Shown here: positions 12,440 through 27,660 of the stretch, piece by piece
Position numbering within the stretch: position 1 is the stretch's first letter
Layout of the letters: every line of letters begins with the position of its first letter
IMG/VR virus record: IMGVR_UViG_3300044956_000682
Location: 1 to 46,073 of that record
DNA: 46,073 bases
Source: a virus
Direction: 5' to 3' (one strand)
The notes under the pieces: model-generated
Databases searched by the model: none
What the model saw: the letters and a program-made list of their open reading frames with translations, nothing else
What the model was told of the DNA's origin: nothing
Program-made: the position numbers and the translations under genes

Positions 12440-12443
12440 AAAT

Positions 12444-14848: not shown

Positions 14849-14849
14849 T

Positions 14850-15260: not shown

Positions 15261-15891
15261 ACCACTATTAAAAAGTGATATAGAGTGTGCTATGAGAATG
15301 ACTAAATCAAATAGAGCAGGAGCGAGATTTTTAAGATGTAGTTATATCCATTATAAGAAATGGGCTAAAAATTATAAAGTAGATGATAATGATCCTAATT
15401 CACTTACTTTATTTGATAAACATAAAAACCAATCAGGTAAAGGTATAGCTAAGTTTTTATCTAATAAAGGTAAAGAACCAGCATTAATGGATGTTATTGA
15501 GGGTAGAGTACCTATTGACTCATACACACCTGAAAAATTAAAAAATAGATTAATACAAGAGAGTTACTTACAAGAGTGTTGTGCTAAATGTCAATTTCAA
15601 GAGCGTAGAGTAGTAGATTATAAAGTACCACTTATACTTAATTTTAAAGATGGTAATAAGAAAAATTGGTCATTAGATAATTTAGAATTACTTTGTTATA
15701 ATCATTATTTTCTTTATGTTGGAAACATATTCACTGACAAACAAATACAGCATTTAGAAGATTACAATCCATCTACATTCCAATCTAAAGTAGATTGGGA
15801 AATGGATGATCATTTTAAAGAACATCTACAAAACCTAAATATAATTAATACTGATAATGAACCAGGTTCAGAGTTTATTTCTAAAGCTTGA
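15250..15891 (+). CDS. HTH plus degenerate HNH-like protein
   Basis: 213-aa protein. The N-terminal SNRAGARFLRCSYIHYKKWAK looks like a helix-turn-helix. Residues 110-155 align with the HNH layout CxxC...LDHINGD...NLxLLCPNCH: CAKC is kept (C111, C114), but LDHINGD is LNFKDGN, so the catalytic His is Phe132, and the second zinc pair is LCYNH (C149, H152). It is therefore probably a nuclease-dead zinc-binding DNA-binding protein or regulator. It carries the DPNSLTL motif also seen in the protein at 16989. The stop codon lies inside the TTGACC box of the next promoter. Confidence 0.7.
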   Translation: MKAKPLLKSDIECAMRMTKSNRAGARFLRCSYIHYKKWAKNYKVDDNDPNSLTLFDKHKNQSGKGIAKFLSNKGKEPALMDVIEGRVPIDSYTPEKLKNRLIQESYLQECCAKCQFQERRVVDYKVPLILNFKDGNKKNWSLDNLELLCYNHYFLYVGNIFTDKQIQHLEDYNPSTFQSKVDWEMDDHFKEHLQNLNIINTDNEPGSEFISKA

Positions 15892-15915
15892 CCGCTGTTA
15901 ATAATCTATATTTAA
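15888..15915 (+). promoter_or_regulatory. TTGACC-N13-TATATTTAA promoter, copy 1
   Basis: TTGACC at 15888-15893, 13 nt, TATATTTAA at 15907-15915. It lies 17 nt before the SWIM gene ATG (15932) and overlaps the stop codon of the HNH-like gene. Member of a 15-copy family. Confidence 0.6.
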
Positions 15916-15931
15916 TTAATAAATAAAGGTT

Positions 15932-16363
15932 ATGTTATACAATGTTGAAATTGTTTATGATGATGGACAGTCCATAACTGAATTAGTTCATTCAGAAAAA
16001 CCACTCACAATTCATCCTAAGCAAGATGGTATTAGAACAGCTAAAGTGAATGTTCACAAATATGAAATTGAATATCATCTACCACCAACTATATTTTTTT
16101 CACCAACTGATGGTAAAAAGTATCTAGTACCAATGTGGGTTGAAGTTCATCCAAATACAACATATGGTGATATTAAATGGATTAAACCTAAAGTAAAAAA
16201 AGTAATTGAACATATCCAAGGTTCAATGGGTGCATATAAAACCACTTATGATCCAAATAAAAATACTTACAAATGTACTTGTATGGGATTTTGGAGAAGT
16301 AAGGGTAATTGTAAACATGTTAAAGCACTTAAAGAGAAAAATTTGGTTATCAAAAGTAAATAA
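15932..16363 (+). CDS. SWIM zinc-finger protein
   Basis: 143-aa protein whose C-terminus carries a SWIM-type zinc finger: C115-T-C117, nine residues, C127-K-H129 (KCTCMGFWRSKGNCKHVKAL), matching CxCxnCxH. SWIM fingers are known to bind DNA or proteins. Residues 1-100 are a beta-rich domain with no recognised family (VKVHPKQDG-type strands, PTIFFSPTDGKKYLVPMW). Translation starts after an AAATAAAGGTTATG leader. A DNA- or protein-binding accessory role is plausible; no enzymatic residues are visible. Confidence 0.75.
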   Translation: MLYNVEIVYDDGQSITELVHSEKPLTIHPKQDGIRTAKVNVHKYEIEYHLPPTIFFSPTDGKKYLVPMWVEVHPNTTYGDIKWIKPKVKKVIEHIQGSMGAYKTTYDPNKNTYKCTCMGFWRSKGNCKHVKALKEKNLVIKSK

Positions 16364-16377
16364 CTTAAATTAATATT

Positions 16378-16656
16378 ATGAATGAAATATTTTTTGGTGG
16401 CGGAAATAATCTTATAATTCAAACATCTAAAAATGTACAATTAAGAGAAACATTAGTTCTTATTAATGGACAAAAAGAACCAATTGAATTGGATGTAAAA
16501 ATAACCGCAGATTTTAATACAATACCTGAAAAGTATCATGAAGTTTTTTTAAATATTATGTCTTCAAAATATTATAATAGAGTATCGTTTGGTGATAATC
16601 CATTTAGTCAATGTGTTCCACCTAAAAAGAAAAAATGGTATCAGTTTTGGAAATAA
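16378..16656 (+). CDS. Hypothetical protein, 92 aa
   Basis: Unrecognised 92-aa protein with a glycine-rich start (MNEIFFGGGNNLIIQTSKNV), a beta-rich middle (ETLVLINGQKEPIELDVKI) and a basic-aromatic tail PPKKKKWYQFWK. Such lysine-tryptophan tails are often membrane-surface or nucleic-acid contacts, which is only a guess. It follows the SWIM gene by 14 nt. Confidence 0.55.
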   Translation: MNEIFFGGGNNLIIQTSKNVQLRETLVLINGQKEPIELDVKITADFNTIPEKYHEVFLNIMSSKYYNRVSFGDNPFSQCVPPKKKKWYQFWK

Positions 16657-16678
16657 TATTTATAAATAAATAAAGAAT

Positions 16679-16933
16679 ATGTTAACAATAAAATATTTCA
16701 CAGCTAGTTGGTGTGGCCCATGTAAAATGTTTGGTCCAATATTTGATAAAGCAATGATGGAGACAGGAGTTAATTATCAAAAAATTGATGTTGATCAAAA
16801 TAAAGATATAGCTCTTAAATATGGAGTCATGAGTGTTCCTTCACTTATATTTGAGCGTGATAATGTTATGATCAATAGAAGAACAGGTGTTTGTTCATAT
16901 AATGAATTGATCACAATGATTAACCGCTCATGA
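16679..16933 (+). CDS. Thioredoxin-like protein
   Basis: 84-aa thioredoxin. TASWCGPCKMF carries the redox CGPC pair (C12, C15) and GVMSVPSLIF the cis-proline loop. It is shorter than E. coli thioredoxin (108 aa), ending at the last helix, as in several phage-coded thioredoxins. Expected to be a cytoplasmic disulfide reductant, perhaps for ribonucleotide reductase or as a polymerase accessory; no partner is in this window. TATTTATA and TATAAATA occur in the leader (16657-16668). Confidence 0.92.
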   Translation: MLTIKYFTASWCGPCKMFGPIFDKAMMETGVNYQKIDVDQNKDIALKYGVMSVPSLIFERDNVMINRRTGVCSYNELITMINRS

Positions 16934-16937
16934 TTAG

Positions 16938-16974
16938 TTGACCTGAGTTTTTGTGTTAAATTTAATTATAAATA
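16938..16974 (+). promoter_or_regulatory. TTGACC-N13-TAAATTTAA promoter, copy 2
   Basis: TTGACC at 16938-16943, 13 nt, TAAATTTAA at 16957-16965, then TATAAATA at 16967-16974. The next ATG is at 16989. Confidence 0.6.
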
Positions 16975-16988
16975 AAAATTAAAAAAAT

Positions 16989-17231
16989 ATGGGACGACAC
17001 GTAAATTACGCTGATGAACAGGACCGATGGTTAAATAAAGCGGAAAAAATTAATCGTAAATTTAAAAAACAACGTTTAGAAGATAGAGATCCTAATTCAT
17101 TAACACTTGCTGAACAGTTGGAATTGGAACGTCGTAGAAAAATTGAATATCGAAAACAAAAAGAACAACAGGCAATGACTCCTAAAAAAGAAGAAGTTTG
17201 GATTAGTCATTATCGACCCAAGCAAAAATAA
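16989..17231 (+). CDS. Hypothetical basic protein, 80 aa
   Basis: 80-aa, highly charged helical protein (RKFKKQRLEDRDPNSLTLAE, then LELERRRKIEYRKQKEQQ). The heptapeptide DPNSLTL recurs in the HNH-like protein at 15250. Likely a coiled helix or disordered nucleic-acid-binding chain by composition; no domain recognised. Preceded by its own copy of the TTGACC promoter. Confidence 0.6.
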   Translation: MGRHVNYADEQDRWLNKAEKINRKFKKQRLEDRDPNSLTLAEQLELERRRKIEYRKQKEQQAMTPKKEEVWISHYRPKQK

Positions 17232-17240
17232 TATATTTAA
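17213..17240 (+). promoter_or_regulatory. TCGACC-N13-TATATTTAA promoter, copy 3
   Basis: TCGACC at 17213-17218 (one mismatch to TTGACC), 13 nt, TATATTTAA at 17232-17240. It lies at the end of the upstream gene and before the DUF932 gene, whose ATG at 17260 follows an ATAAAAATAAAAGTT leader. Confidence 0.55.
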
Positions 17241-17259
17241 ATAAATAAAAATAAAAGTT

Positions 17260-18048
17260 ATGAAACAAGTATTTAATGAGTTGTCCATGGTGGACATTAA
17301 AAAAACCGCTCCAAGTGTTTTCCAAAGTAAGCACAAAGGTAATTTAAGTAAACACTATGTGCACATTCCAACAGATCAAGTAATTAATGACATGATTCAA
17401 TTAGGTTGGAAACCATGTCAAGCAGTTGAAATCAAAGCTCGTAAAAAGAATACAATTGGTTATCAACGTCACATGATTAAATTTTTCAATCCAAATATTG
17501 AGATTGAAGGTGTTAATGGTGATAATGTTTATCCACAAATCCTATTAACAAATAGTCATGATGGTTTGAGCTCATTTAAATTCCAAATTGGTTTGTTCCG
17601 TTTGGTATGTTCAAATGGATTGGTTGTTATGGATAGTAGTTATGGTGATTTTAAACTACGTCATATGGGTTATACATTTAAGGAACTACAACAGAAAGTA
17701 TCTGAAACTGTAGCAGCGTTTCCTGGATTGGTTAAGAAAATTAATGAGTTCCAAAATGTTGAATTGAGTGACTGGCAAGTAAAGAAATTTGCTAAAGGTG
17801 CAGCACTGGTTCGTTTTGGTGATAATGTTAAGGTTGATATTGATACATTATTGAAAATAGACCGTGTTGAAGACTCAGGTAACAATTTATGGGCTGTGTT
17901 CAACCGTGTTCAGGAGAAATTGATTAATGGTAACTGTTCATATACTATGGGTGCTAGGATTCGTAAAGCTAGAAAAATTAAGAACTTTAGCATGGATCTT
18001 AAGATCAATGAAGCGCTTTGGAAATTAGCTGAGGAGTATGTTAAATAG
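17260..18048 (+). CDS. DUF932 phage/plasmid-like protein
   Basis: 262-aa member of the DUF932 family, which is widespread on phages and plasmids without a settled function. Diagnostic segments: KPCQAVEIKARKKN, GYQRHMIKFF, PQILLTNSHDGLSSFKFQIG and FRLVCSNGLVVMDSS. It is well expressed by appearance: more CGT, AAC and TTC codons than its neighbours, a canonical leader and a good copy of the promoter. In many phages it sits with early or replication genes. No catalytic residues can be named. Confidence 0.85.
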   Translation: MKQVFNELSMVDIKKTAPSVFQSKHKGNLSKHYVHIPTDQVINDMIQLGWKPCQAVEIKARKKNTIGYQRHMIKFFNPNIEIEGVNGDNVYPQILLTNSHDGLSSFKFQIGLFRLVCSNGLVVMDSSYGDFKLRHMGYTFKELQQKVSETVAAFPGLVKKINEFQNVELSDWQVKKFAKGAALVRFGDNVKVDIDTLLKIDRVEDSGNNLWAVFNRVQEKLINGNCSYTMGARIRKARKIKNFSMDLKINEALWKLAEEYVK

Positions 18049-18065
18049 TACTCCCAGCTTTTTAA

Positions 18066-18073
18066 TATTTATA
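18066..18073 (+). promoter_or_regulatory. TATTTATA late-type promoter core (candidate)
   Basis: TATTTATA 12 nt before the ATG at 18085, within AATATTTATATTAAAA. No TTGACC box lies at the expected distance, so this may be a different promoter class. The same octamer stands before the structural operon (34396). Confidence 0.3.
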
Positions 18074-18084
18074 TTAAAACACTC

Positions 18085-18378
18085 ATGGCTAAAGTATTTG
18101 AATTTAAGTCAGTTGGGGACCTTAAACAGAAAGTTGAAGGTAAAGATTTAACACTATCTCTTGAGGTGTATAATCAAATTAAAAAAGCATTTTATAGTAA
18201 AGTTAAGCGTAAAAAAGTAAAAGCGTTTTCAGCTAAAGTAGGTAGTCGTGACATTATTGATTTTATACTAGAACGCAACCAATGGAAAACATCATTAAAT
18301 ACTTGTTTAAATGTTTTTGTTAGAAATGAAATGTATGAGGAATGTGCTGTTATTAGAGATATGTTAAATAAATTATAA
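18085..18378 (+). CDS. Hypothetical protein, UVR-like C-terminus
   Basis: 97-aa protein. The N-terminal half has a basic run (KVKRKKVKAFSAKVGSRD); the C-terminal 36 residues (NQWKTSLNTCLNVFV, MYEECAVIRDMLNKL) are clearly related to the end of the 106-aa protein at 14528. The N-terminal halves differ, which suggests a shared interaction module on two different heads. It sits 1 nt before the metalloprotease-like gene and may be functionally tied to it. Confidence 0.65.
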   Translation: MAKVFEFKSVGDLKQKVEGKDLTLSLEVYNQIKKAFYSKVKRKKVKAFSAKVGSRDIIDFILERNQWKTSLNTCLNVFVRNEMYEECAVIRDMLNKL

Positions 18379-18379
18379 T

Positions 18380-18760
18380 ATGTTAACTAAGGATGATATA
18401 ACAAGAAAAAATGCTCTAATCATATTTGATTGGTGTAAAAAACAATTTGGTACTAGTTCAACAAATGGTCCTTATCCTAAATTAATATTCCATAAAAAAG
18501 GTGATTATGCTGGTTTATATGACCCATGGAAAAATGAAATACATGTTTGTAAAAAATATCATAGAACAATTTTAGGTTTTATATCAACTATAATACATGA
18601 GTTTGTTCATTATAGATTTCATAGTGTTAAAAAACAATATCAAGAACTAAATAAAATATATACTTACAAATCACATCCTATGGAACGTGAGGCAAGTAAG
18701 TTAGAAAGAAAATATAAATGGGTTTGTTATTATGATTGTTTCTCATCTAACACTCCTTAA
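18380..18760 (+). CDS. SprT-like zinc metalloprotease-like protein
   Basis: 126-aa protein with HExxH: H73-E-F-V-H77 in STIIHEFVHYRFH, followed about 22 residues later by HPMEREASKLERKY, where a third ligand (E102 or E104) could sit. This arrangement resembles short SprT-like/WLM metallopeptidases. AGLYDPWKNEIHVCKKYH before the motif fits the beta-hairpin that precedes the active helix. Could cleave a host or phage protein; substrate unknown. Confidence 0.7.
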   Translation: MLTKDDITRKNALIIFDWCKKQFGTSSTNGPYPKLIFHKKGDYAGLYDPWKNEIHVCKKYHRTILGFISTIIHEFVHYRFHSVKKQYQELNKIYTYKSHPMEREASKLERKYKWVCYYDCFSSNTP

Positions 18761-18822
18761 ACTTTGTTCATACTTTTAGTTTTTATTTATTATCTCTGTT
18801 TGTGTCTACTCACGGGGATTTT

Positions 18823-18850
18823 TTAACCCTAATTAATTAGTTATGTTTAT
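18823..18850 (+). promoter_or_regulatory. TTAACC-N13-TATGTTTAT promoter, copy 4
   Basis: TTAACC at 18823-18828, 13 nt, TATGTTTAT at 18842-18850. Found in the 105-nt gap before the gene at 18866. A TATTTATA at 18856-18863 also lies between this and the ATG. Confidence 0.45.
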
Positions 18851-18865
18851 TTAAATATTTATACC

Positions 18866-19090
18866 ATGATTATTGATTATACAACTAGAGAAATTATTAG
18901 CAAGTATGTTAATGAATATGTTCCTGAAGGTATTCAGGAGCAATATCATGTTAATTGTAGAAAACATACAGAACAAATAATTGAAGCTCTAATTGAGAAT
19001 AATATAATTGATAATAAAGAAACAACAATTGAAGCTGTTTGCTTATGTTGGAGTGAGTTTATATATAGAAAGTTTAGTATACTAAACTAA
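18866..19090 (+). CDS. Hypothetical protein, 74 aa
   Basis: Unrecognised 74-aa helical protein (MIIDYTTREIISKYVNEYVP, later TTIEAVCLCWSEFIYRKFSI). Contains a CLC pair and a second Cys (NCRKH) that might bind metal, but no spacing is diagnostic. Own promoter-like sequence upstream. Confidence 0.55.
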   Translation: MIIDYTTREIISKYVNEYVPEGIQEQYHVNCRKHTEQIIEALIENNIIDNKETTIEAVCLCWSEFIYRKFSILN

Positions 19091-19121
19091 TTTTTAACAA
19101 AACCAAGCCCTGTATGGACCA

Positions 19122-19475
19122 ATGTTTAATCCATTTGAAAAATTTGCAGATAAGATACTGCACCGAGACAAGAAAGGGCAAGACCTTAAAAAATACTCTA
19201 TTGATTTAAATGGTGTATTAGGAAAGAGTATTGATAATAAAGAATCACAACACAACGAGAATAGGAAATTGGTTGGTACAACCAAAATATGTTTAATGAA
19301 TAAGTTACATTTCTGGATTAATAAAACAACTGGTGTTCATTCATCACATATTGCTTATCTAGAACATGATATAAAACAAGCTGCTACTATTTGTGATCTA
19401 ATTAACCAGGATAAGTACACAAAAGACGATATTACAAAATTACGTAATATTTTACAAAAACATAACTGTTTATAG
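19122..19475 (+). CDS. Hypothetical protein, 117 aa
   Basis: 117-aa protein with an amphipathic, basic N-terminus (MFNPFEKFADKILHRDKKGQ) and a helical C-terminus (AYLEHDIKQAATICDLINQD). No domain recognised. The first ATG (19114, MDQ) is out of frame, so 19122 is kept. Its stop codon lies within the first hairpin of the 19471-19524 structure. Confidence 0.5.
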   Translation: MFNPFEKFADKILHRDKKGQDLKKYSIDLNGVLGKSIDNKESQHNENRKLVGTTKICLMNKLHFWINKTTGVHSSHIAYLEHDIKQAATICDLINQDKYTKDDITKLRNILQKHNCL

Positions 19476-19524
19476 GACATTAATTATCAATGTTCTATAG
19501 AACGTTGAAAATCAACGTCTTATA
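19471..19524 (+). promoter_or_regulatory. Two overlapping RNA hairpins before a microprotein
   Basis: Hairpin A: TATAGGACATT (19471-19481) pairs with AATGTTCTATA (19489-19499), 11 bp with one G-U and a 7-nt loop. Hairpin B: TATAGAACGTTGA (19496-19508) pairs with TCAACGTCTTATA (19512-19524) with one mismatch and one G-U. They share the TATA at 19496-19499, so full formation is mutually exclusive. A related hairpin occurs at 26759-26785. Confidence 0.5.
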
Positions 19525-19541
19525 ATGTGAAATCCATGAGA

Positions 19542-19569
19542 CTGACCACAACTATTTATGTATCTTTAT
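19542..19569 (+). promoter_or_regulatory. CTGACC-N13-TATCTTTAT promoter, copy 5
   Basis: CTGACC at 19542-19547, 13 nt, TATCTTTAT at 19561-19569, followed by ATATAAG. ATG at 19581. Copies 10 and 13 share the TATCTTTA core. Confidence 0.6.
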
Positions 19570-19580
19570 TATATAAGAAA

Positions 19581-19688
19581 ATGATTATTTGGTTATTTAT
19601 AATATTAGTGATTGTGATTAATGTGATTGAAGTGGTCAAAGATGTCATTGATATTATTAGGTTAATTATTAACCGTATTTTCAAATAA
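19581..19688 (+). CDS. Membrane microprotein, 35 aa
   Basis: 35-codon gene. The protein starts MIIWLFIILVIVINVIEVV, a clear transmembrane segment of about 18 residues, followed by a short amphipathic tail (KDVIDIIRLIINRIFK). It has its own hairpin leader and promoter, which argues for a real gene despite the length. Likely inserted in the host inner membrane; function unknown. Confidence 0.5.
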   Translation: MIIWLFIILVIVINVIEVVKDVIDIIRLIINRIFK

Positions 19689-19692
19689 TTGA

Positions 19693-19729
19693 TTGACCAT
19701 AATTGATTTGGTAAATTTAAATATAAATA
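19693..19729 (+). promoter_or_regulatory. TTGACC-N13-TAAATTTAA promoter, copy 6
   Basis: TTGACC at 19693-19698, 13 nt, TAAATTTAA at 19712-19720, then TATAAATA at 19722-19729. ATG of the RadA-like ATPase at 19741. Confidence 0.6.
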
Positions 19730-19740
19730 AAAAAACAAAT

Positions 19741-20556
19741 ATGAATACAGGTAAAAGAAGAGGTAGACCACGTAAAAATCAGGTTATGGAGTATCAAGTA
19801 ACTGTTCCTAGTAAAATTGATTTTAATATCATCAAATTGAATAATTTGGATATTGATCCAAGAATGATGGACACTATGAAGAGTGGTATGTTGATTGATG
19901 ATTTGATTAGTCATGAAGGTGGAATACCATGTGCAACAAATATAATGTGTATTGGTGATCCAGGTGTAGGTAAAACAACTGTGTTACTAGATATTTTAGC
20001 TGGTGTTCAAAACCGTGGTAGAAAATGTTTGTTCATATCTGGTGAAATGGGTAAAAAACAAATGTTTAAGTACACACAACGATTCCCACAATTTGGTAAT
20101 GTTCAAACATTGTTTATGTCTGATTATTTAGAATATAATACTAAAGATGTGATTGAACAAGTAATGAATATGGGTTGGGATTGTATATTGATAGATTCAA
20201 TTGCTGAAATTATTGAGGGTGTTAGAGATGATAATAAATGGGATCGTAAACAAGCTGAATCATGGTTAGTTGATTTGTGTATTAAGAATAATAAAGGTGA
20301 AAATAAAAAAGAAGCATACACATCGTTTTTATTGGTTCAACAAGTTACTAAATCAGGTGAGTTTGTAGGTAGTAACAAATTGAAACATATGACTGACGCG
20401 ATGATGGAAATGCGTAGAGAAAGTGAACGTGATGGAGGTGGAACATATATGAACTTCATCAAGAATAGAAATGGTAATGTGGATGTTAAGTTTGGTTACC
20501 AATTGAATAATGACCACATATATTATGGAACAATGGTTAATGAAGATGCTGAATAA
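19741..20556 (+). CDS. RadA-like RecA-superfamily ATPase with N-terminal AT-hook
   Basis: 271-aa ATPase. Residues 4-13 (GKRRGRPRKN) are an AT-hook-like basic tail. Residues 60-80 hold CIGDPGVGKTT (Walker A), followed by LFISGEMGKKQMFKYTQRF, which matches the RadA/Sms segment after Walker A. WDCILIDSIAEI is Walker B. SFLLVQQVTKSGEFVGSNKL and LKHMTDAMMEMRRE match the RadA pattern in which the helicase-like core ends at 'LEHMVD'. The frame extends to a TTG at 19693, but that lies in the promoter, so the ATG at 19741 is used. Likely acts in recombination or branch migration on phage DNA. Confidence 0.85.
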   Translation: MNTGKRRGRPRKNQVMEYQVTVPSKIDFNIIKLNNLDIDPRMMDTMKSGMLIDDLISHEGGIPCATNIMCIGDPGVGKTTVLLDILAGVQNRGRKCLFISGEMGKKQMFKYTQRFPQFGNVQTLFMSDYLEYNTKDVIEQVMNMGWDCILIDSIAEIIEGVRDDNKWDRKQAESWLVDLCIKNNKGENKKEAYTSFLLVQQVTKSGEFVGSNKLKHMTDAMMEMRRESERDGGGTYMNFIKNRNGNVDVKFGYQLNNDHIYYGTMVNEDAE

Positions 20557-20584
20557 TTAACCCAAACAAAAACATTATATTAAT
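20557..20584 (+). promoter_or_regulatory. TTAACC-N13-TATATTAAT promoter, copy 7
   Basis: TTAACC at 20557-20562, 13 nt, TATATTAAT at 20576-20584. ATG at 20598 after ATAAAAATAAAAGTT. The box overlaps the upstream stop region. Confidence 0.5.
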
Positions 20585-20597
20585 AAAAATAAAAGTT

Positions 20598-21488: not shown

Positions 21489-21517
21489 TCAAATCCATTC
21501 TTTAATTACTAAGTTTG

Positions 21518-21546: not shown

Positions 21547-21565
21547 ATAAATAAAAATAAAAGTT

Positions 21566-22449: not shown

Positions 22450-22816
22450 TTATGCTCAAATAGTAATTGATAATATATTAGAAATAGAGAGAACATTACC
22501 AGTAGATCAACAAATGCCATTTGATCTACTTACTTATTTGACTAAATTAATTGAGACAGAAGCAGATAAATATTATACTGAATATATAATTGGTAAACGA
22601 GAGACATTTCTATTTAATAGTGTTGAATTAACTGATTTATTTAATAAAGCAGGTGAGTTATATGTTGGTGATATACTTGATGGGTTAGTAGATAAAGATA
22701 TGCTTGAAGTAAGTATAGATGAAACAGGAGAATTTTTATATGGATTAAGTAAGAAAGGAGAACAAGCAATTGGAATTAATCAGTCTAAAAAACGAGGTAG
22801 AAAATCTAAAAAATGA
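22415..22816 (+). CDS. Winged-helix-like protein with RGR tail
   Basis: 133-aa protein. Residues about 60-120 (VELTDLFNKAGELYVGDILD, DKDMLEVSIDETGEFLYGLS) look like a winged-helix fold ending in a 'hydrophobic-G-LSKKGE' wing. The extreme C-terminus QSKKRGRKSKK is a second AT-hook-like basic tail. A transcriptional or nucleoid role is suggested by both features. It overlaps the next microprotein by 4 nt. Confidence 0.6.
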   Translation: MIDPNNINSGSDYAQIVIDNILEIERTLPVDQQMPFDLLTYLTKLIETEADKYYTEYIIGKRETFLFNSVELTDLFNKAGELYVGDILDGLVDKDMLEVSIDETGEFLYGLSKKGEQAIGINQSKKRGRKSKK

Positions 22817-22920
22817 TTAAAGGTATTTTAATATTACTAATACCATTAATTGAATGGTTTGGAATAATTTTATTTTTAATATTAGATAAAGACAATGGCG
22901 AAGAAAACAATAACAAATAA
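22813..22920 (+). CDS. Membrane microprotein, 35 aa
   Basis: 35-codon gene. MIKGILILLIPLIEWFGIIL is a single hydrophobic helix from the N-terminus, followed by an acidic/asparagine tail (LDKDNGEENNNK). It starts in an ATGA overlap and overlaps the next gene by 26 nt. Function unknown. Confidence 0.5.
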   Translation: MIKGILILLIPLIEWFGIILFLILDKDNGEENNNK

Positions 22921-23224
22921 TACTTCAGGCATTATATTCACTACAAGTAATACTAGTATTAGTCAAAGTATTCATACAGCTATGGGAACAACATCAACAA
23001 CATGGCATCATAACCCTAATCCAGGTAATCAAGTTGTTTATAGTAAACCATCAATTGATCCAACTCCATTTTGTATAAATTTTAACTGGGATGATAAAGA
23101 AGTTGATGTTGCTTTAAAAAATGGTAATGATATATTCAAATTAGCAAATGCATTTATGGAGTGGTTAGATAAAAATGAAATTGAGTATAGTATTAAAACA
23201 AACAGCAGAAAGAAGAAAAAATAA
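22895..23224 (+). CDS. Hypothetical protein, 109 aa
   Basis: 109-aa protein with a Ser/Thr/Asn-rich first half (TNNTSGIIFTTSNTSISQSI), then PTPFCINFNWDDKEVDVALK and a helix ending in a basic RKKKK tail. No domain recognised. The second half resembles the compact alpha-beta tail of small uncharacterised phage proteins. Confidence 0.55.
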   Translation: MAKKTITNNTSGIIFTTSNTSISQSIHTAMGTTSTTWHHNPNPGNQVVYSKPSIDPTPFCINFNWDDKEVDVALKNGNDIFKLANAFMEWLDKNEIEYSIKTNSRKKKK

Positions 23225-23249
23225 GTTTGTCTACATAAAAATAAGATAT

Positions 23250-23258
23250 TATATTTAA
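23250..23258 (+). promoter_or_regulatory. TATATTTAA core upstream of the HTH gene
   Basis: TATATTTAATATATAAAA starting at 23250 matches the downstream half of the promoter family, but the expected TTGACC position (23231) reads CTACAT. A variant or weak promoter for the gene at 23302. Confidence 0.35.
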
Positions 23259-23301
23259 TATATAAAATTAGTAATTAAAATTTAAAACAAAAAACACAGT
23301 T

Positions 23302-23541
23302 ATGAGTTTTCAAACTAAAGTACGTGCGAATTACTTGAACCGCACAGCCAAGTTGTCATTTTTCAAGAACCGTCAACGCAACGGTGATGTGACAAAAATT
23401 GCTGACACAACTGGTTACAGTGAGCGTATGATCTATTATGTGCTTGCTGGTGAGCGTCGTGTTAATCAAATCATTGCAAATGCAATGTATAATTTGACAA
23501 GACGTCGTATGCGTAACGAAGAGTTCCTTGGACTTGTTTAA
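23302..23541 (+). CDS. Small HTH DNA-binding protein
   Basis: 79-aa basic protein with a helix-turn-helix: NGDVTKIADTTGYSERMIYY then VLAGERRVNQIIANAMYNLT, as in Cro/XRE-type folds. Codon use differs sharply from its neighbours (many CGT, AAC, GAC, CTT), typical of highly expressed genes. A strong terminator-like hairpin follows at 23578. A candidate regulator of this region. Confidence 0.72.
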   Translation: MSFQTKVRANYLNRTAKLSFFKNRQRNGDVTKIADTTGYSERMIYYVLAGERRVNQIIANAMYNLTRRRMRNEEFLGLV

Positions 23542-23577
23542 TTGTAGGTTACGTTCTAAGACTGCCATGAAAGGGTT

Positions 23578-23615
23578 AGCGGTTCAACTTTTAAGTTGAC
23601 CGCTTTCTCTTATTT
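23578..23615 (+). terminator. Rho-independent terminator overlapping a promoter
   Basis: AGCGGTTCAACTT pairs with AAGTTGACCGCT across a TT loop (23578-23604, one bulged T), followed by a T-rich tract TTTCTCTTATTT. The 3' arm contains the TTGACC box of promoter copy 9. Confidence 0.65.
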
Positions 23616-23623
23616 ATATTAAT
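23596..23623 (+). promoter_or_regulatory. TTGACC-N13-TATATTAAT promoter, copy 9
   Basis: TTGACC at 23596-23601, 13 nt, TATATTAAT at 23615-23623. ATG of the 181-aa gene at 23638. The box is inside the terminator stem, so termination and restart share the same DNA. Confidence 0.5.
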
Positions 23624-23637
23624 ATAAATGAAATAAT

Positions 23638-24183
23638 ATGGTAATCTTTAAAGGTAAAAAGCGTAAATTTATTCACACCATGGATATTACTTTAAGTGAT
23701 ATTCGTGCTGTGTTTTTTCCATTTACATTTGATGAAAAGTATAAATACTTAGGTAGTGTACCATGGAATGAAAGTGGAGAAATATTTCAAGCAATGGAGC
23801 CACTTGTTATCTTTATGGATTATAAAGCCAGGCCATGGTGGTGTCCCAGATTTGTATTAAGATTTTTACATTTGTTTGGAGATGATAATTCAATTGTTAG
23901 AGTTAGAAATAGAGCATTAAGTAATCTTAAAAGAAGACTTACCAAAGGGTATAGTATAATAGACTATAAGACTAAATGGACTTATTATGATTTAAGAATA
24001 TCTATTTCAGGTAGCAATCAGATGTGGTTTCTTGTTAATGCTATTGAGGAAAAGTTCTATAACAATGAATATAGAATAAATTTAGTAAACCAGATTAAGA
24101 ATTTAGATCCAAATACTAAATTTCATAAAGGATATACAACCGACACATTAAAAGATGAATTGGACCGACTAATGAATGATTAA
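23638..24183 (+). CDS. Hypothetical protein, 181 aa
   Basis: 181-aa protein of unknown function: MDITLSDIRAVFFPFTFDEK, a tryptophan-rich RPWWCPRFVLRFLHLFGDDN, then KTKWTYYDLRISISGSNQMW with beta character. No motif recognised. The WW-C-P segment and basic helix (ALSNLKRRLTKGY) might contact membrane or nucleic acid. Confidence 0.6.
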   Translation: MVIFKGKKRKFIHTMDITLSDIRAVFFPFTFDEKYKYLGSVPWNESGEIFQAMEPLVIFMDYKARPWWCPRFVLRFLHLFGDDNSIVRVRNRALSNLKRRLTKGYSIIDYKTKWTYYDLRISISGSNQMWFLVNAIEEKFYNNEYRINLVNQIKNLDPNTKFHKGYTTDTLKDELDRLMND

Positions 24184-24215
24184 AATTTAAAAATATTTAA
24201 TATAAACATAAATGT

Positions 24216-24395
24216 ATGTATAACAAAATTAGAGCAATATTAGTAACATTATTAATTATACTAAGTGTAGGTGGTATAATAAATATTGGAATGAATTATC
24301 CAAACGAAACCAGATATGGTGTACTAGTGATAATGATAGGTGGATGGTTATATTGGTTATACCAATTAGTGTTGAGTATAATAGAAAATAAATAA
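24216..24395 (+). CDS. Membrane microprotein, 59 aa
   Basis: 59-codon gene. IRAILVTLLIILSVGGIINI is one transmembrane helix and YGVLVIMIGGWLYWLYQLVL a second, joined by a short NYPNETR loop. A hairpin of two helices with both ends probably on the same side. The ATG at 24212 is blocked by a stop four codons on, so 24216 is the start. Confidence 0.5.
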   Translation: MYNKIRAILVTLLIILSVGGIINIGMNYPNETRYGVLVIMIGGWLYWLYQLVLSIIENK

Positions 24396-24401
24396 ACAGT
24401 T

Positions 24402-24488
24402 ATGACAACAATAGTACATCAAAATGAAGCCAAATGGGGTAAACCAGCATATATAAAAATAGTAGATGACAAGGTCATATATGATTGA
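24402..24488 (+). CDS. Possible microprotein, 28 aa
   Basis: 28-codon frame with the canonical AAATAAACAGTTATG leader; protein MTTIVHQNEAKWGKPAYIKI plus VDDKVIYD. Too short to be sure; listed because of the leader and its position between two small genes. Confidence 0.3.
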   Translation: MTTIVHQNEAKWGKPAYIKIVDDKVIYD

Positions 24489-24519
24489 TCTGATAAGGGA
24501 TTAGAAAAAACAATAACAA

Positions 24520-24729
24520 ATGACAGAGATATTAGGATGGATAGCAACAGCAGTGGTAGTAATATCATTTACAGTTAAAGACATATGGTGGCTTAGAGCA
24601 ATAAATGCTATAGGTGCTACAATATGGTTTATATATGGTGGTTTAAAAAATGATATACCATTACTAGTTGTAAACATGCTAATACTAACAGCACATATTC
24701 ATTGGTACTATAAACAACAAACAAAATGA
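24520..24729 (+). CDS. YgjV/SemiSWEET-like small membrane protein
   Basis: 69-aa protein with three hydrophobic helices: ILGWIATAVVVISFTV, AINAIGATIWFIYGGL, and PLLVVNMLILTAHIHWYY. The layout GW-I-A-T...S-F...R-x-x-N...G...W-x-x-YG resembles the YgjV/SemiSWEET-type three-helix repeat (PQ-loop-like). Such proteins form small solute channels or membrane scaffolds; the phage role is unknown. Confidence 0.6.
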   Translation: MTEILGWIATAVVVISFTVKDIWWLRAINAIGATIWFIYGGLKNDIPLLVVNMLILTAHIHWYYKQQTK

Positions 24730-24863
24730 AATTAATACCATTTATATACTACAATATGTGGTACGTGTTACCTATGATAAGCATTATATATGAACCAAAG
24801 TACTATCTAAGTATAGATATAGCATGGTTAAAATGGGGAATAGGAATAATAATAGATAAATAA
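24726..24863 (+). CDS. Microprotein, 45 aa
   Basis: 45-codon frame overlapping the previous stop as ATGA. Protein MKLIPFIYYNMWYVLPMISI, IYEPKYYLSIDIAWLKW, GIGIIIDK: aromatic and hydrophobic, possibly membrane-associated, with no signal motif. Supported by the coupled start and by its place in a run of small membrane genes. Confidence 0.45.
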   Translation: MKLIPFIYYNMWYVLPMISIIYEPKYYLSIDIAWLKWGIGIIIDK

Positions 24864-24879
24864 AAAAAAACACAGCAAT

Positions 24880-25161
24880 ATGATAATCCAGACAATACAT
24901 GAGATATTAAATCCGTTTGATGTGGAGGTAAAAAAACTTGGCCATGGTGTTGCATTATTTATAATAGCAGGTAGTATACATAGCAACCCTCAATTCATAA
25001 TACGATTTTATAATACGGGTGAGGTGCGTACGGTTGATCAAAACGATATACAAATATATGGTAACCCAACAACGGGAGAACCATTAACTCCAATACAAGT
25101 AGATGCGCCTAAAATGCAAGATAAGGCGCCTAAACCAACAAGTACAGTGTGTGACAATTAA
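24880..25161 (+). CDS. Hypothetical protein, 93 aa
   Basis: 93-aa protein: beta-rich core (VKKLGHGVALFIIAGSIHSN, then FIIRFYNTGEVRTVDQNDIQ) with a proline-rich tail (PLTPIQVDAPKMQDKAPKPT). No domain recognised. GC is locally higher than the surroundings (GCG and CGG codons), and the non-coding stretch behind it is unusually G-rich. Confidence 0.55.
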   Translation: MIIQTIHEILNPFDVEVKKLGHGVALFIIAGSIHSNPQFIIRFYNTGEVRTVDQNDIQIYGNPTTGEPLTPIQVDAPKMQDKAPKPTSTVCDN

Positions 25162-25203
25162 TTGTAATGGATGACATGATGTTGGGTAAAACGTTTATAT
25201 GCA

Positions 25204-25296
25204 GCGTATGGGTAACGTTAGGTGCGTATGGGTATGTGACAAGATAATTAGATGTGGGTGTTAAGTAGATGTGGGTAGGTTCCCTTCTTTTACACT
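25204..25296. repeat. Short G-rich direct repeats
   Basis: GCGTATGGGTA occurs at 25204-25214 and 25224-25234 (period 20). TAGATGTGGGT occurs at 25249-25259 and 25266-25276 (period 17). GTGGGTAGGTTCCCTT at 25271 is repeated with one change at 26790 (GTGGGTAGGATCCCTT), just before promoter copy 13. No convincing gene; a 26-codon ATG frame at 25167 is the only one. Confidence 0.55.
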
Positions 25297-25346
25297 GGTC
25301 ATCCAAGCCTTACTCAACAGGACTCTATATAAGTATATACGCTTGC

Positions 25347-25374
25347 CTGACCGGGACATGTTCACTATCTTTAT
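25347..25374 (+). promoter_or_regulatory. CTGACC-N13-TATCTTTAT promoter, copy 10
   Basis: CTGACC at 25347-25352, 13 nt, TATCTTTAT at 25366-25374. CTGACCGGGAC here closely matches TTGACCGGGAC of copy 13. ATG at 25391. Confidence 0.6.
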
Positions 25375-25390
25375 TATATAATAAGAAAAT

Positions 25391-25495
25391 ATGGGAACAC
25401 ATATCACGATTTTAGAATTTTTAGTTATTAGCGCTCTAAGTGTACTGGGTTATGCAGTAGTGAAGGCTGCCTATGAAACGTGGTTCAAAGCTTAA
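25391..25495 (+). CDS. Membrane microprotein, 34 aa
   Basis: 34-codon gene starting MGTHITILEFLVISALSVLG, then YAVVKAAYETWFKA: one transmembrane helix (residues 7-24) and a short amphipathic tail. Its own promoter copy precedes it and its stop lies just before copy 11. Confidence 0.5.
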   Translation: MGTHITILEFLVISALSVLGYAVVKAAYETWFKA

Positions 25496-25533
25496 TTGAC
25501 CACGGCTCCGATGCTATATTTAATATATAAATG
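25496..25533 (+). promoter_or_regulatory. TTGACC-N13-TATATTTAA promoter, copy 11
   Basis: TTGACC at 25496-25501, 13 nt, TATATTTAA at 25515-25523, then TATATAAAT. The core-to-ATG distance fits the ATG at 25540 better than 25531. Confidence 0.6.
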
Positions 25534-25539
25534 AATAAC

Positions 25540-25788
25540 ATGAACACAACAGTAAACAGAATGAGATTGGATGAAGTGATTAGTTGGTTTTCACAACGTG
25601 GTTATAAACAAACAGCTAGTTACTTTATGGTTATGGTTAAGGACCAAGCCGCGTATGATGTAATATTAGACCGTAACGCGTTTTGGATCAATACAAAAAT
25701 AGTACATGGCCACCTTGGTGATCATTTATTTAAAGAATTAGAATGTGATGTATGTACTTGGATGCCAGCCGAAATTGAGCTTGCCTGA
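25540..25788 (+). CDS. Hypothetical protein, 82 aa
   Basis: 82-aa protein from the ATG at 25540 (three residues longer from 25531, which overlaps the promoter's A/T block). Helical MNTTVNRMRLDEVISWFSQR, then KDQAAYDVILDRNAFWINTK and a CDVCTW pair near the C-terminus. No family recognised. Fairly strong codon use (CGT, GGC, GCC) against its neighbours. Confidence 0.6.
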   Translation: MNTTVNRMRLDEVISWFSQRGYKQTASYFMVMVKDQAAYDVILDRNAFWINTKIVHGHLGDHLFKELECDVCTWMPAEIELA

Positions 25789-25812
25789 CCGATCAAAACA
25801 TATTATATTTAA
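25785..25812 (+). promoter_or_regulatory. CTGACC-N13-TATATTTAA promoter, copy 12
   Basis: CTGACC at 25785-25790 overlaps the upstream stop codon; 13 nt; TATATTTAA at 25804-25812. ATG of the AT-hook gene at 25839 after AATAAAATAAAGGTT. Confidence 0.6.
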
Positions 25813-25838
25813 GTATTAATAACAATAAAATAAAGGTT

Positions 25839-26072
25839 ATGTCAAGTGAAAAACAAACAGCAAAACGTGGTCGCCCAATTGTGGAAGGATCTAAACGTCA
25901 AGCAGTACTTGCTATGCGTGAGGCAAAACGCGCTCAGGGTATTGAACTTAAGCGTGGCCGCCCAGCCGGTACTAAGAAAGTAACTAATGTTACTGTTGAG
26001 GTAAAAGCTAAGGCTACTAAGGCTCAAAAACAAGCAGTGTTGGCAACAACAGCTGATGTTAATGAGGCTTAA
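25839..26072 (+). CDS. AT-hook DNA-binding protein
   Basis: 77-aa basic protein with two canonical AT-hooks: AKRGRPIV (near residue 8) and LKRGRPAG (near residue 37), separated by a helix rich in Ala and Arg (KRQAVLAMREAKRAQ). AT-hooks are known to bind the minor groove of A/T tracts, and this genome is strongly A/T rich. High-expression codon use. Likely a nucleoid-like or regulatory DNA-binding protein; target unknown. A large hairpin follows. Confidence 0.8.
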   Translation: MSSEKQTAKRGRPIVEGSKRQAVLAMREAKRAQGIELKRGRPAGTKKVTNVTVEVKAKATKAQKQAVLATTADVNEA

Positions 26073-26088
26073 TTAATTAGTGATTAAC

Positions 26089-26120
26089 ACAGCGGCCCCT
26101 TATAGAGGGGCATTCGCTGT
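26089..26120 (+). terminator. Strong hairpin downstream of the AT-hook gene
   Basis: ACAGCG GCCCCT / AGGGGC ... CGCTGT: 6-bp GCCCCT/AGGGGC inner stem around a TATAG loop, plus a 6-bp ACAGCG/CGCTGT outer stem with an ATT bulge. No U-tract follows, so it may be an mRNA-stabilising or processing structure rather than a terminator. Confidence 0.5.
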
Positions 26121-26139
26121 AGCGTATACATGGGGGTGG

Positions 26140-26160
26140 GGTGCACCTAACATATGTTAG
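26140..26160. promoter_or_regulatory. Tandem palindromes (operator-like)
   Basis: GGTGCACC (26140-26147) followed directly by the perfect 14-bp palindrome CTAACATATGTTAG (26147-26160). Two-fold symmetric sites fit dimeric DNA-binding proteins. Located between the AT-hook gene and the gene at 26223. Confidence 0.4.
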
Positions 26161-26222
26161 CCTTAAATTGCCTACTGAGGCAGGCCCCCTAATTTAATTA
26201 TATGTATAAATAAAAATTAAAC

Positions 26223-26465
26223 ATGACTAACTTAACACAGTATCTAGCCGAAATCAAAGCCGAATTACAAGAACTATATGAGGATCTAAACTATGAACTA
26301 CAACAAACCGATAACCAGGATCTGATAGATGATAGTTATCATAATGTAACTAGTAAACTTGAATCGGCATTATCTGAAATGGAAAACCTAATTCATGACA
26401 TTGATAATAATATGTATGGTGACCTGTTTGATGATGACGGGATGTTAGAGGGCGAAGAGTATTAG
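26223..26465 (+). CDS. Acidic helical protein, 80 aa
   Basis: 80-aa, strongly acidic helical protein: LAEIKAELQELYEDLNYEL, SKLESALSEMENLIHDID, ending DLFDDDGMLEGEEY. Likely a coiled coil. Acidic small phage proteins are sometimes DNA mimics or antirepressors, but nothing here proves that. TATAAATA stands 14 nt before the ATG (26204-26211). Confidence 0.6.
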   Translation: MTNLTQYLAEIKAELQELYEDLNYELQQTDNQDLIDDSYHNVTSKLESALSEMENLIHDIDNNMYGDLFDDDGMLEGEEY

Positions 26466-26513
26466 ATGTGTGTGTTAGAGGATTTTTGTTTTTAAAGGAT
26501 CTTTGTTTTTAAA

Positions 26514-26544
26514 GGACCCCCGATAATTGAGGTCCATCGAGGGG
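26514..26544 (+). promoter_or_regulatory. Alternative RNA hairpins
   Basis: GGACC (26514-26518) can pair with GGTCC (26531-26535), or CCCCCGAT (26517-26524) can pair with ATCGAGGGG (26536-26544, A bulged). The two pairings compete, a layout seen in attenuators. Not tested. Confidence 0.35.
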
Positions 26545-26655
26545 AGAGGTTGACCCAAAAAAAAGGATATGTGTTTAGAGATCGTAAACAATAAACCACA
26601 TCGACATATATATACCTATATACACACCCCCAAAACATAATGGAGCTTCAGAAAT

Positions 26656-26701
26656 ACCCCTTTGTGATTAATTTCACAAGGGGTAAACTCTTCTTTTTTT
26701 A
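26656..26701 (+). terminator. Rho-independent terminator
   Basis: ACCCCTTTGTGA pairs with TCACAAGGGGT (26656-26684, one bulged T), followed after a short spacer by TTCTTTTTTT. The strongest terminator-like hairpin in the window. Confidence 0.65.
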
Positions 26702-26758
26702 TAGATTTTTTCGTCGATGGAAAGTATATACAAGTAACCCTGTTGGGTTGATTATTTC

Positions 26759-26785
26759 ATAGAATGTTGATTTTCAATGTCCTAT
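26759..26785 (+). promoter_or_regulatory. Leader hairpin related to the one at 19496
   Basis: ATAGAATGTTGA (26759-26770) pairs with TCAATGTCCTAT (26774-26785) with one mismatch and two G-U pairs. Its sequence resembles hairpins A/B at 19471-19524 and it also precedes a promoter plus membrane microprotein. Confidence 0.45.
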
Positions 26786-26807
26786 AAAAGTGGGTAGGAT
26801 CCCTTGA

Positions 26808-26835
26808 TTGACCGGGACTATCCATGTATCTTTAA
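26808..26835 (+). promoter_or_regulatory. TTGACC-N13-TATCTTTAA promoter, copy 13
   Basis: TTGACC at 26808-26813, 13 nt, TATCTTTAA at 26827-26835, immediately before the ATG at 26840. A second TTG at 26804-26806 lies 20 nt before TATCTTTA, the Bacteroidota-like spacing. Confidence 0.6.
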
Positions 26836-26839
26836 TTAT

Positions 26840-26962
26840 ATGGAATTATTAAAAAATATAGGTTATGTGATTTTGATGACTCTAATATTAATCATGCCTT
26901 GGTGGATATTAATAGTTTTTATTGTTTGGGCTATCCAGAATAGAAATGACTGCAACCCCTAA
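26840..26962 (+). CDS. Membrane microprotein, 40 aa
   Basis: 40-codon gene: MELLKNIGYVILMTLILIMP then WWILIVFIVWAIQNRNDCNP, hydrophobic from residue 8 to 32. The ATG is only 5 nt past the promoter core, so the transcript might be nearly leaderless, or translation may start at ATG 26876. Copy 14's box lies in its 3' end. Confidence 0.45.
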   Translation: MELLKNIGYVILMTLILIMPWWILIVFIVWAIQNRNDCNP

Positions 26963-26983
26963 CATATATTTAATATATAAATA
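26946..26983 (+). promoter_or_regulatory. ATGACT-N13-TATATTTAA promoter, copy 14
   Basis: ATGACT at 26946-26951 (two mismatches), 13 nt, TATATTTAA at 26965-26973, then TATAAATA at 26976-26983. ATG at 26997. Confidence 0.5.
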
Positions 26984-26996
26984 AAAAATATGAGTT

Positions 26997-27221
26997 ATGA
27001 ATAAGATGCAATTAGAAATTTTAAGTAAATTACCCAAACGTCATTTTGACGCAGTTATTAAACTATTGAATAACAAAGTTACCAATGAGGATTTAAAACC
27101 TATGTTTCCAGATGGTTGGAATGATAATAGTAAATGGCCAGAGTTTAAAAACAATTATGATTCATTTAGAGTCCATCAAGTAAGAATTGACTATGAACTT
27201 GAAAAAATGATGGGTTGTTAA
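26997..27221 (+). CDS. Hypothetical protein, 74 aa
   Basis: 74-aa helical protein (MNKMQLEILSKLPKRHFDAV, KLLNNKVTNEDLKPMFPDGW). The ATG at 26990 is blocked after four codons, so 26997 is used; it follows the usual GAGTTATG leader. No family recognised. Confidence 0.6.
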   Translation: MNKMQLEILSKLPKRHFDAVIKLLNNKVTNEDLKPMFPDGWNDNSKWPEFKNNYDSFRVHQVRIDYELEKMMGC

Positions 27222-27240
27222 TTTATTAAAAATAAAGATT

Positions 27241-27615
27241 ATGTATAAAAAAGAAGTTATGAATACCAATTTTAAACCACTACAAGATATTAACTGTGTA
27301 AGTGGTAGTAGTTTTTATCAAGATGTTATTTTCGCCACACCAAATCAACTCAGATATATACTTGGAGAACCAGCATATGAACAGAATGATGGTACTAATA
27401 AAGTAAACATGGAATGGTATATGGAAATGAATGACAGTAATATATTCACTGTATATGCTCGTCCTCGCTATTATAAAGAATACAGATCACTACATCCAAA
27501 TGAACAAATTGAATGGCATATTGGTGGTCATGATCAATTCACAACACACCTGGCCAAACAATTGTTAAGTGAAGCACTTCAAGAAACCACTGATGAAGGA
27601 TTATTGGATGATTAA
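27241..27615 (+). CDS. Hypothetical protein, 124 aa
   Basis: 124-aa protein: DVIFATPNQLRYILGEPAYE, EWYMEMNDSNIFTVYARPRY, IEWHIGGHDQFTTHLAKQLL. The alternating beta strands and the 'FGEP...W-x-M...YDW/YARP...WHIGG' pattern resemble small phage proteins of unknown function. An alternative start at ATG 27259 (MNTNFKPL) is also preceded by an A-rich leader. Confidence 0.62.
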   Translation: MYKKEVMNTNFKPLQDINCVSGSSFYQDVIFATPNQLRYILGEPAYEQNDGTNKVNMEWYMEMNDSNIFTVYARPRYYKEYRSLHPNEQIEWHIGGHDQFTTHLAKQLLSEALQETTDEGLLDD

Positions 27616-27616
27616 T

Positions 27617-27644
27617 TTAACCTCAATTAATTAAGTATATTCAT
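27617..27644 (+). promoter_or_regulatory. TTAACC-N13-TATATTCAT promoter, copy 15
   Basis: TTAACC at 27617-27622, 13 nt, TATATTCAT at 27636-27644, then ATATAAATAAG. ATG at 27661. Confidence 0.45.
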
Positions 27645-27660
27645 ATATAAATAAGAAGAT

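Follow-up and report, generated by a model that had tools for sequence, protein, structure and literature searches.

The stretch of viral DNA analysed here, hereafter the window, is the whole of IMG/VR record IMGVR_UViG_3300044956_000682 (46,073 bases) and is evidently part of a larger T4-like phage genome. Genes in its central small-gene region are preceded by a recurrent two-box element, TTGACCgcrAYT ... TATATTTA, in which a block of the −7 type follows TTGACC after exactly 13 nt; the element lies on the coding strand, mostly 40–57 nt before start codons. As far as sequence comparison can tell, this element, which we call class II, is confined to one clade among the phages examined, and at several orthologous genes it replaces a host-type promoter element found in sister phages. 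We hold with moderate confidence that class II constitutes a second class of promoters, in which a separate and likely phage-borne activator would occupy the 12-bp box at about −31 to −20 while the host RNA polymerase engages the −7 block.

A two-box element with a fixed 13-nt spacing

An initial annotation of the window had proposed a promoter family of 15 copies with a fixed 13-nt spacing. Re-reading all 15 coordinates confirms the 13-nt gap in 14 of them; 12 match YTRACC-N13-TAnnTT strictly (Nx denoting a gap of x nucleotides), and the two non-strict boxes at 13 nt read TCGACC (17213) and ATGACT (26946). The remaining site, listed at 21518 with a 14-nt gap, is assigned to a different, host-type class (class I) because a TTTG lies at the spacing typical of host promoters (TTG-N20), both here and at the corresponding sites of the related contigs G003 and G009; the complete site, TTTG-N20-TATATTTA, spans 21515–21545 on the + strand before the gene at 21566. 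One strict class II site was absent from the earlier list, namely CTAACC-N13-TATTTTAA (TATTTT) at 28300–28326 of the + strand, 39 nt before the gene at 28339.

When YTRACC–TAnnTT pairs are counted on the + strand of the window at all gaps from 5 to 30 nt, 13 are found at N13 and a single pair at each of N11, N14 and N29, with none at any other gap. The − strand holds no pair at N13. In 200 dinucleotide shuffles of the window, the count at N13 averages 0.385 and reaches at most 3, against the 13 observed; with TTTA required, the shuffles average 0.04 and reach at most 2, against 9. All 13 strict sites fall within 15601–28340, with none in 1–15600 or in 28341–46073, in agreement with the earlier observation that the glycan island and the baseplate genes lack copies. 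Neither these other regions nor the shuffles match the density at 15.6–28.34 kb, so the claim of a local family stands. A related contig, G021, adds about 47 kb of structural genes and holds merely 2 class II sites.

All 15 listed sites lie directly before genes, as had been stated, 32–54 nt upstream of an ATG opening a frame of at least 34 codons. The box often includes or touches the stop codon (TGA or TAA) of the preceding gene, which also accords with the first description. Two details of that description are not borne out. The proposed downstream block TAnnTTTAA is present in 9 of the 15 sites, with the shorter TAnnTTTA in 12, and TATAAATA, said often to follow, is exact in 4 of 15 and occurs 12 times on the + strand of the window against 10–13 copies expected from base composition; we rejected it as a downstream element. 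Palindromy of the box (TTG-N4-CAA) was inspected and is not convincing.

The contact of the box with preceding stop codons, together with the generic, A-rich leaders that follow class II sites, might suggest an RNA-level feature or a chance product of A+T-rich, stop-overlapping intergenic DNA. Such an origin is very improbable: the shuffles stay far below the observed count, gaps other than 13 are nearly empty even though stop codons would fit them equally well, and in several cases a promoter-like dyad occupies the corresponding position before the orthologues in sister phages.

The class II sites of the window all lie on the + strand. TTGACC-N13-TATATTTA at 15888–15914 overlaps the stop codon of the gene ending at 15891 and precedes the gene at 15932, whose product resembles a SWIM zinc finger slightly below the Pfam cut-off. 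Further class II sites stand at 16938–16964, 23596–23622 and 25496–25522, before the genes at 16989, 23638 and 25531, respectively. The box reads TTAACC at 18823–18849, 20557–20583 and 27617–27643, before the genes at 18866, 20598 and 27661. The TCGACC variant at 17213–17239 precedes the DUF932 gene at 17260, and the degenerate ATGACT site at 26946–26972 precedes the gene at 26997. CTGACC is found at 19542–19568, before a 35-aa hydrophobic open reading frame (ORF) at 19581, and, with an additional TTG at N20, at 25347–25373 (before a 34-aa ORF at 25391) and 25785–25811 (before the gene at 25839). Two sites are composites of the form TTGATTGACC: the first, at 19693–19719 with TTG at N20, precedes the gene for a RecA/KaiC-like ATPase at 19741, and the second, at 26808–26834, precedes a 40-aa ORF at 26840. 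The ORFs at 19581, 25391 and 26840 are very short (34–40 aa) and hydrophobic, each with its own class II element. The small protein encoded at 25839–26072 contains two KRGRP stretches resembling AT-hooks; it is present in 7 of the nine ingroup contigs defined below and, distantly, in one sister phage.

Recurrence in one clade and comparison with sister phages

Judged by gene order, the closest named relative of the window is the Flavobacterium phage vB_FspM_immuto (160 kb; hereafter immuto), which has in common with it the succession of glycan island, HNH endonuclease, DUF932 gene, small-gene run, T5orf172 protein and baseplate genes. Among the matches listed, contig G021 (66 kb) encodes at least 10 proteins 100% identical to those of window positions 32090–42838 and extends onward into capsid genes, while its proteins matching those at 27822 and 28339 reach merely 69% and 64% identity. 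An Rfam scan of the window gave no match. Related loci, 74 in all, were gathered through the DUF932 and RecA/KaiC-like proteins, and genes were called with a simple caller of our own (minimum open frame 40 codons, with a preference for ATG starts). Class II sites were counted as [CT]T[GA]ACC-N13-TAnnTT and class I sites as TTG-N20-TAnnTT, both rules being of our choosing, and sites 28–80 nt before a gene were taken as near-gene. The ingroup comprises nine contigs, the window and eight others, all of them incomplete genomes.

Each of the eight other ingroup contigs has a peak at N13 on the coding strand (20, 19, 11, 18, 13, 9, 8 and 9 sites, against 0–5 at other gaps). Together the nine contigs hold 120 class II sites by rule, 95 of them near genes; since these are partly orthologous between contigs, they are not independent events. 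A de novo motif search, which uses no such rule, returned tTGACC..aatta.tt...TAtATTTA as the top ingroup motif, with 153 sites in 855 upstream regions. Later rounds of this expectation-maximisation search, which yielded either weak motifs or the first motif again in shifted form, were left unused.

A tree of RecA/KaiC-like proteins was built from the 53 of 57 sequences (window included; 43 of the 53 different) whose aligned residues exceed 200. Rows were labelled by a threshold, of our choosing, of two or more class II sites; the 21 that reach it form a single clade, with support 96/92 and one label change. The remaining 32 rows have 0 or 1 site. A tight form of the motif scanned over all viral contigs found 27 stretches; among the counted records behind them, one 184-kb contig outside the clade has 3 matches against 4 in its control, which is the level of chance.

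The upstream and downstream halves of the element differ in their distribution. We anchored a further count on TA[AT][AC]TTTA located 14–45 nt before genes, which gives 143 ingroup sites and 95 sites in four sister genomes. ACC stands at N13 in 95 of the 143 ingroup sites, with 0–3 at each of the other gaps from 3 to 24 (1 at N12, 3 at N14); in the sisters the corresponding count is 3 of 95 (1, 0, 1 and 1 per genome). TTG at N20 is present in 67 of the 95 sister sites (17/22, 4/15, 17/24 and 29/34) and in 38 of the 143 ingroup sites. The full box YTRACC occurs at N13 in 69 of the 143, and 25 of these also have TTG at N20. De novo searches elsewhere return TTTGG-N19-TATATT in three sister contigs and GTTG-N20-TATATTTAg in immuto. 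The downstream half had been likened to the −7 element of Bacteroidota and the upstream half set apart from the standard −33 element, and both assignments agree with these counts: TAnnTTTA is common to class II and to the host-type class of the same phages and their sisters, and the sisters show TTG at the standard distance, N20. Immuto and the uncultured sisters thus resemble the window in gene order, in the TATATTTA block and in several of the same genes, and differ in having GTTG-N20 (immuto) or TTTGG-N19 (sisters) upstream, with TTGACC-N13 at background.

The last base of the −7 block, of which the counting rule itself fixes TAnnTT, is A in all 95 near-gene class II sites (A 96% and G 2% over all 120). 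It is also A in 92% of 75 sister sites and 81% of 47 immuto sites, with no G in either, and so A at this position does not distinguish class II. Host-type sites of the ingroup (36) have A in 58% and G in 14%.

Class II does not appear to be the sole promoter class in these genomes. The host-type class coexists with it, and the site at 21518 belongs there. Near ingroup genes, 69 TTG-N20 sites lacking the box were counted against 5–32 at other gaps from 10 to 30, so that some of the 69 are chance occurrences. Those in the window, all on the + strand, include TTG-N20-TAAATTAA at 16343–16373 before the gene at 16378, with similar ones in related contigs, and TTG-N20-TATATTTA at 23227–23257, before the helix-turn-helix-like gene at 23302, and at 7448–7478, before the gene at 7483. 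In sister contig G011 (loci L112–L120), for example before genes at 56.4, 66.8 and 75.5 kb, host-type promoters are fused with apparent intrinsic terminators, such that GCTTGG...CCAAGC and its T run supply the −33 element and the spacer of the next promoter.

TTG lies exactly at N20 (TTGATTGACC or a variant) in 31 of the 95 near-gene class II sites, against 0–5 at each of 24 other offsets, and is missing from the other 64. By their sequence, these composites look like half-converted promoters. A TTG that immediately precedes the box and keeps the host-type distance is also what one would expect if the box were the operator of a phage repressor, superimposed on host-type promoters that it shuts off. 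An operator would have no need of a fixed register, yet ACC is concentrated at N13 and nearly absent from N12 and N14; TTG at N20, moreover, drops from 67 of 95 sites in the sisters to 38 of 143 in the ingroup. We regard this explanation as improbable.

Orthologous genes were compared by the strict rule in 32 groups with any promoter match. In 12 of them at least one ingroup contig has class II, and in 7 of these 12 at least one sister has TTG-N20; no sister orthologue in the 32 groups has class II. Genes with class II in the ingroup and TTG-N20 in one or more sisters include those at window positions 15932 (class II in 6 of 9 ingroup contigs), 17260 (5 of 9), 19741 (6 of 7) and 28339 (2 of 8). 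For the DUF932 gene at 17260, inspection by eye finds GACC-N13 in all 9 ingroup contigs (5 by the strict rule) and TTG-N20 in 2 of 3 sister contigs and in immuto. The genes for GTP cyclohydrolase, a dCTP deaminase-like protein and DNA polymerase B have TTG-N20 in ingroup and sisters alike. Family B DNA polymerase is found behind this host-type promoter in both groups (L084:7953–10541, G001). The polymerase annotated in immuto belongs to family A (NC_055915, 37898–40231) and has no homologue in the other records compared.

A putative activator and its rivals

In Flavobacterium johnsoniae the primary sigma factor recognises TANNTTTG, in which the G at −5 hardly ever varies and from which the start site is 4–5 nt away (PMC6847099). 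If the −7 block of class II is placed as in F. johnsoniae, the box TTGACCgcrAYT would extend from about −31 to about −20, which is between the contacts usually made by sigma regions 4 and 2. A host-like arrangement would be TTG-N20-TA, and TTGACC places its TTG 4 bp nearer to the block than that; an extra protein bound in the spacer is the simplest reading. Under the activator model, the host polymerase bearing its primary sigma factor would read the TAnnTTTA block, while a separate DNA-binding protein in the box would touch the polymerase at fixed geometry and replace or aid the −33 contact, much as MotA does at T4 middle promoters. The idea of one recognition factor, advanced in the initial annotation, follows reasonably from the constancy of the register; our searches did not find the factor, and it could be encoded by phage or host. 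Since host-style promoters precede several of these genes in sister phages, an additional factor for reading promoters seems to have been acquired in the branch to which the window belongs. The protein would most likely be phage-encoded or carried in the virion and gained once in the ancestor of the clade, with host-type promoters converted by way of the TTGATTGACC composites. That one lineage invented an activator unrelated to MotA, which docks on the Bacteroidota polymerase, and converted ancestral host-type promoters one by one is a tentative proposal, to which we give slightly less than even credence.

Both likeness and difference emerge when class II is set beside known systems. At T4 middle promoters the MotA box, centred at −30, is separated from the −10 element by 12 ± 1 bp and takes the place of the −35 element (PMC2988021). 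Class II likewise keeps the host −10/−7 element, TAnnTTTA being found in the host-type class too, and places a phage box at a near-fixed distance (13 nt in 95 of 143 sites), a likeness of layout and not of function. Beside host-type promoters, these T4-like phages also have what is probably a late class of the gp55 type. The box itself differs, TTGACCgcrAYT as against (a/t)(a/t)(a/t)TGCTTtA with no TGCTT, and by the assumed register it lies nearer the start (about −31 to −20 as against −35 to −26). Moreover, no MotA or AsiA homologue was detected here, the polymerase is presumably of the Bacteroidota type, and class II genes make up the small-gene region, not the replication genes. With the primary-sigma promoters of Bacteroidota (−33 TTTG, −7 TANNTTTG) class II has the TAnnTTT block in common, and the sisters have TTTG or TTTGG at the host-type distance. 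It departs from them in a TTG 4 bp closer than TTG-N20, in A for the nearly invariant last G, and in having TTG at the standard N20 in a minority of sites, where class I and most sister sites have it.

A fixed two-box dyad could also be read as a whole by an alternative sigma factor, phage-encoded or of the extracytoplasmic function (ECF) type. Bacteroides thetaiotaomicron has a second, non-canonical two-box motif, PM2, with elements around −10 and −30, tied to lowlier expressed and oxidative-stress genes (PMC7366714). Compared by its description and not letter by letter, PM2 differs in being near-palindromic and in its oxidative-stress enrichment. Sister contig G011 has a clear second Sigma70_r2 gene (117560–117754, E 1.8e-16), which was not seen in the ingroup records. 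The downstream half of class II is, on the other hand, the same TATATTTA block as in the sisters' host-type class; the nine ingroup records, which are incomplete genomes, yielded no match to Sigma70_r2 at an E-value of 0.1 or below; and the sole probable sigma gene, at 33629, is also present in sisters that lack the motif. An alternative sigma factor is quite improbable, more so than an operator.

The host of the clade is probably a member of the Bacteroidota, judging from its relatives (the immuto record gives Flavobacterium as host) and from the promoter type. Bacterial genomes scanned with the RecA/KaiC-like alignment yielded no relative, and those scanned with the glycan-island aminotransferase yielded 22, none in genomes titled Bacteroidota. 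The TTGACC box might be read by an activator or a variant primary sigma factor of that host, the phage having copied regulated or strong host promoters. A single host shift would produce the same single-clade distribution, the class II genes look early and so would be readable by unmodified host polymerase, and no phage factor was found. Nevertheless, the same genomes retain TTG-N20 promoter-like sites, and Bacteroidota primary promoters, in the published descriptions that we consulted in part, are TTTG / TANNTTTG and not TTGACC. We consider a host factor unlikely, though it is the most probable of the rivals weighed here.

Profiles PF09114, PF09158 and PF09010 (MotA, MotCF and AsiA) were run on 13 records, ten from the ingroup, and matched none, although ingroup records are fragments and very distant homologues could be missed; on T4 itself, PF09114 scores 3e-63 and PF09010 2e-43, a positive control for the MotA and AsiA profiles. 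Other proteins, most of them confined to the ingroup, were scanned against Pfam and PHROG and gave nothing regulatory. The helix-turn-helix-like protein at 23302–23541 was rejected, its presumed recognition helix varying within the clade while the box is constant, and it is found in sisters as well. The sigma-like gene at 33629 was rejected as a clade-specific factor, being common to sister phages. Three families present in all 9 ingroup contigs, each on the + strand of the window, are weak candidates and serve as leads only: a 296-aa protein (20598–21488) and a 117-aa protein with a helical model (19122–19475), both found in none of the sister records examined, and a basic 100-aa protein (22147–22449), to which a protein of one sister phage is distantly related. 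In BFVD, the model of the 296-aa protein has a match to a single uncharacterised phage protein (E 9e-8).

Several points weigh against a phage-borne activator. The strict rule finds neither promoter class in any sister for 5 of the 12 class II gene groups, and it also finds neither in the ingroup for some genes that have TTG-N20 in sisters; one-for-one replacement is consequently seen for part of the genes only. The placement at −31 to −20 is by analogy, and the counting rules are analyst-chosen. The small genes behind class II elements form what looks like an early region, and the polymerase and nucleotide genes keep host-type promoters. A phage-made activator would have to be expressed first from class I promoters, or else be injected; there is thus scope for either an injected factor or one from the host, and a host activator is a serious rival. 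Finally, no candidate factor can be named, none of the nine ingroup contigs is complete, and structural models of the 296-aa and 117-aa proteins (predicted local distance difference test, pLDDT, 88.4 and 74.5) have no fold match in the PDB at E 0.001 or better.

Should the activator reading prove true, sigma appropriation or something similar would have arisen outside T4 and Escherichia coli, on the divergent primary sigma factor of Bacteroidota. The two clades would then offer a phylogenetically resolved natural record of the takeover of a promoter class, with half-converted TTGATTGACC composites still visible, and the contrast between them makes ancestral and derived promoters of the same genes directly comparable. 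In the literature that we searched, seen in part, we found no report of Bacteroidota phages with a phage-specific promoter class.

A third motif and further genome features

A third motif, TATTTAT[AG], mostly following A (ATATTTATA), is enriched 8–60 nt before genes in both clades, at 5–9 times expectation. Of the + strand copies, those before genes number 22/38 in G010 (3.0 expected), 39/76 in G011 (5.5), 33/72 in G012 (4.8), 24/38 in immuto (2.7), 15/33 in G021 (2.0), 16/32 in G001 (2.7) and 7/17 in the window (1.4). Strand bias is marked in the sisters and immuto (72 against 19 in G012) and slight in several ingroup contigs (17 against 14 in the window). The ATATTTATA block has no conserved upstream block and precedes above all late genes. 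Its sequence is the reverse complement of the T4 late sequence TATAAATA. In the window, a copy of late type, TATTTATA, is located at 34396–34403 of the + strand before the gene at 34414, with further copies before the genes at 14506, 16657, 18066, 18856 and 41716.

The + strand gene at 33629–34378, present in both clades, probably encodes a gp55-type late sigma factor; we take it as such because two sister orthologues match Sigma70 region 2 (Sigma70_r2, 4.0e-5 and 4.9e-5, below the curated cut-off) and the PHROG late sigma factor family (phrog_234, 0.0016). The window's own protein has no Sigma70_r2 or phrog_234 match. Itself unannotated and conserved as far as immuto, it is 46% identical to a protein of that phage, and direct comparison with T4 gp55 by hhalign is weak (E 0.048, probability 1%). 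Taken with this gene, the ATATTTATA motif is a probable late promoter of immuto-like phages. Since the ATATTTATA and TTG-N20 classes are common to both clades, the clade-specific class II stands out. Host-type, TTGACC-N13 and ATATTTATA together make three motif classes and, for an uncultured group of phages, a testable transcription programme.

Homologues of the 7-deazaguanine genes of immuto (Que/FolE/DpdA) are found in G007 (5.9–10.9 kb), G010 and G011, which suggests that some of these phages carry DNA with modified guanine.

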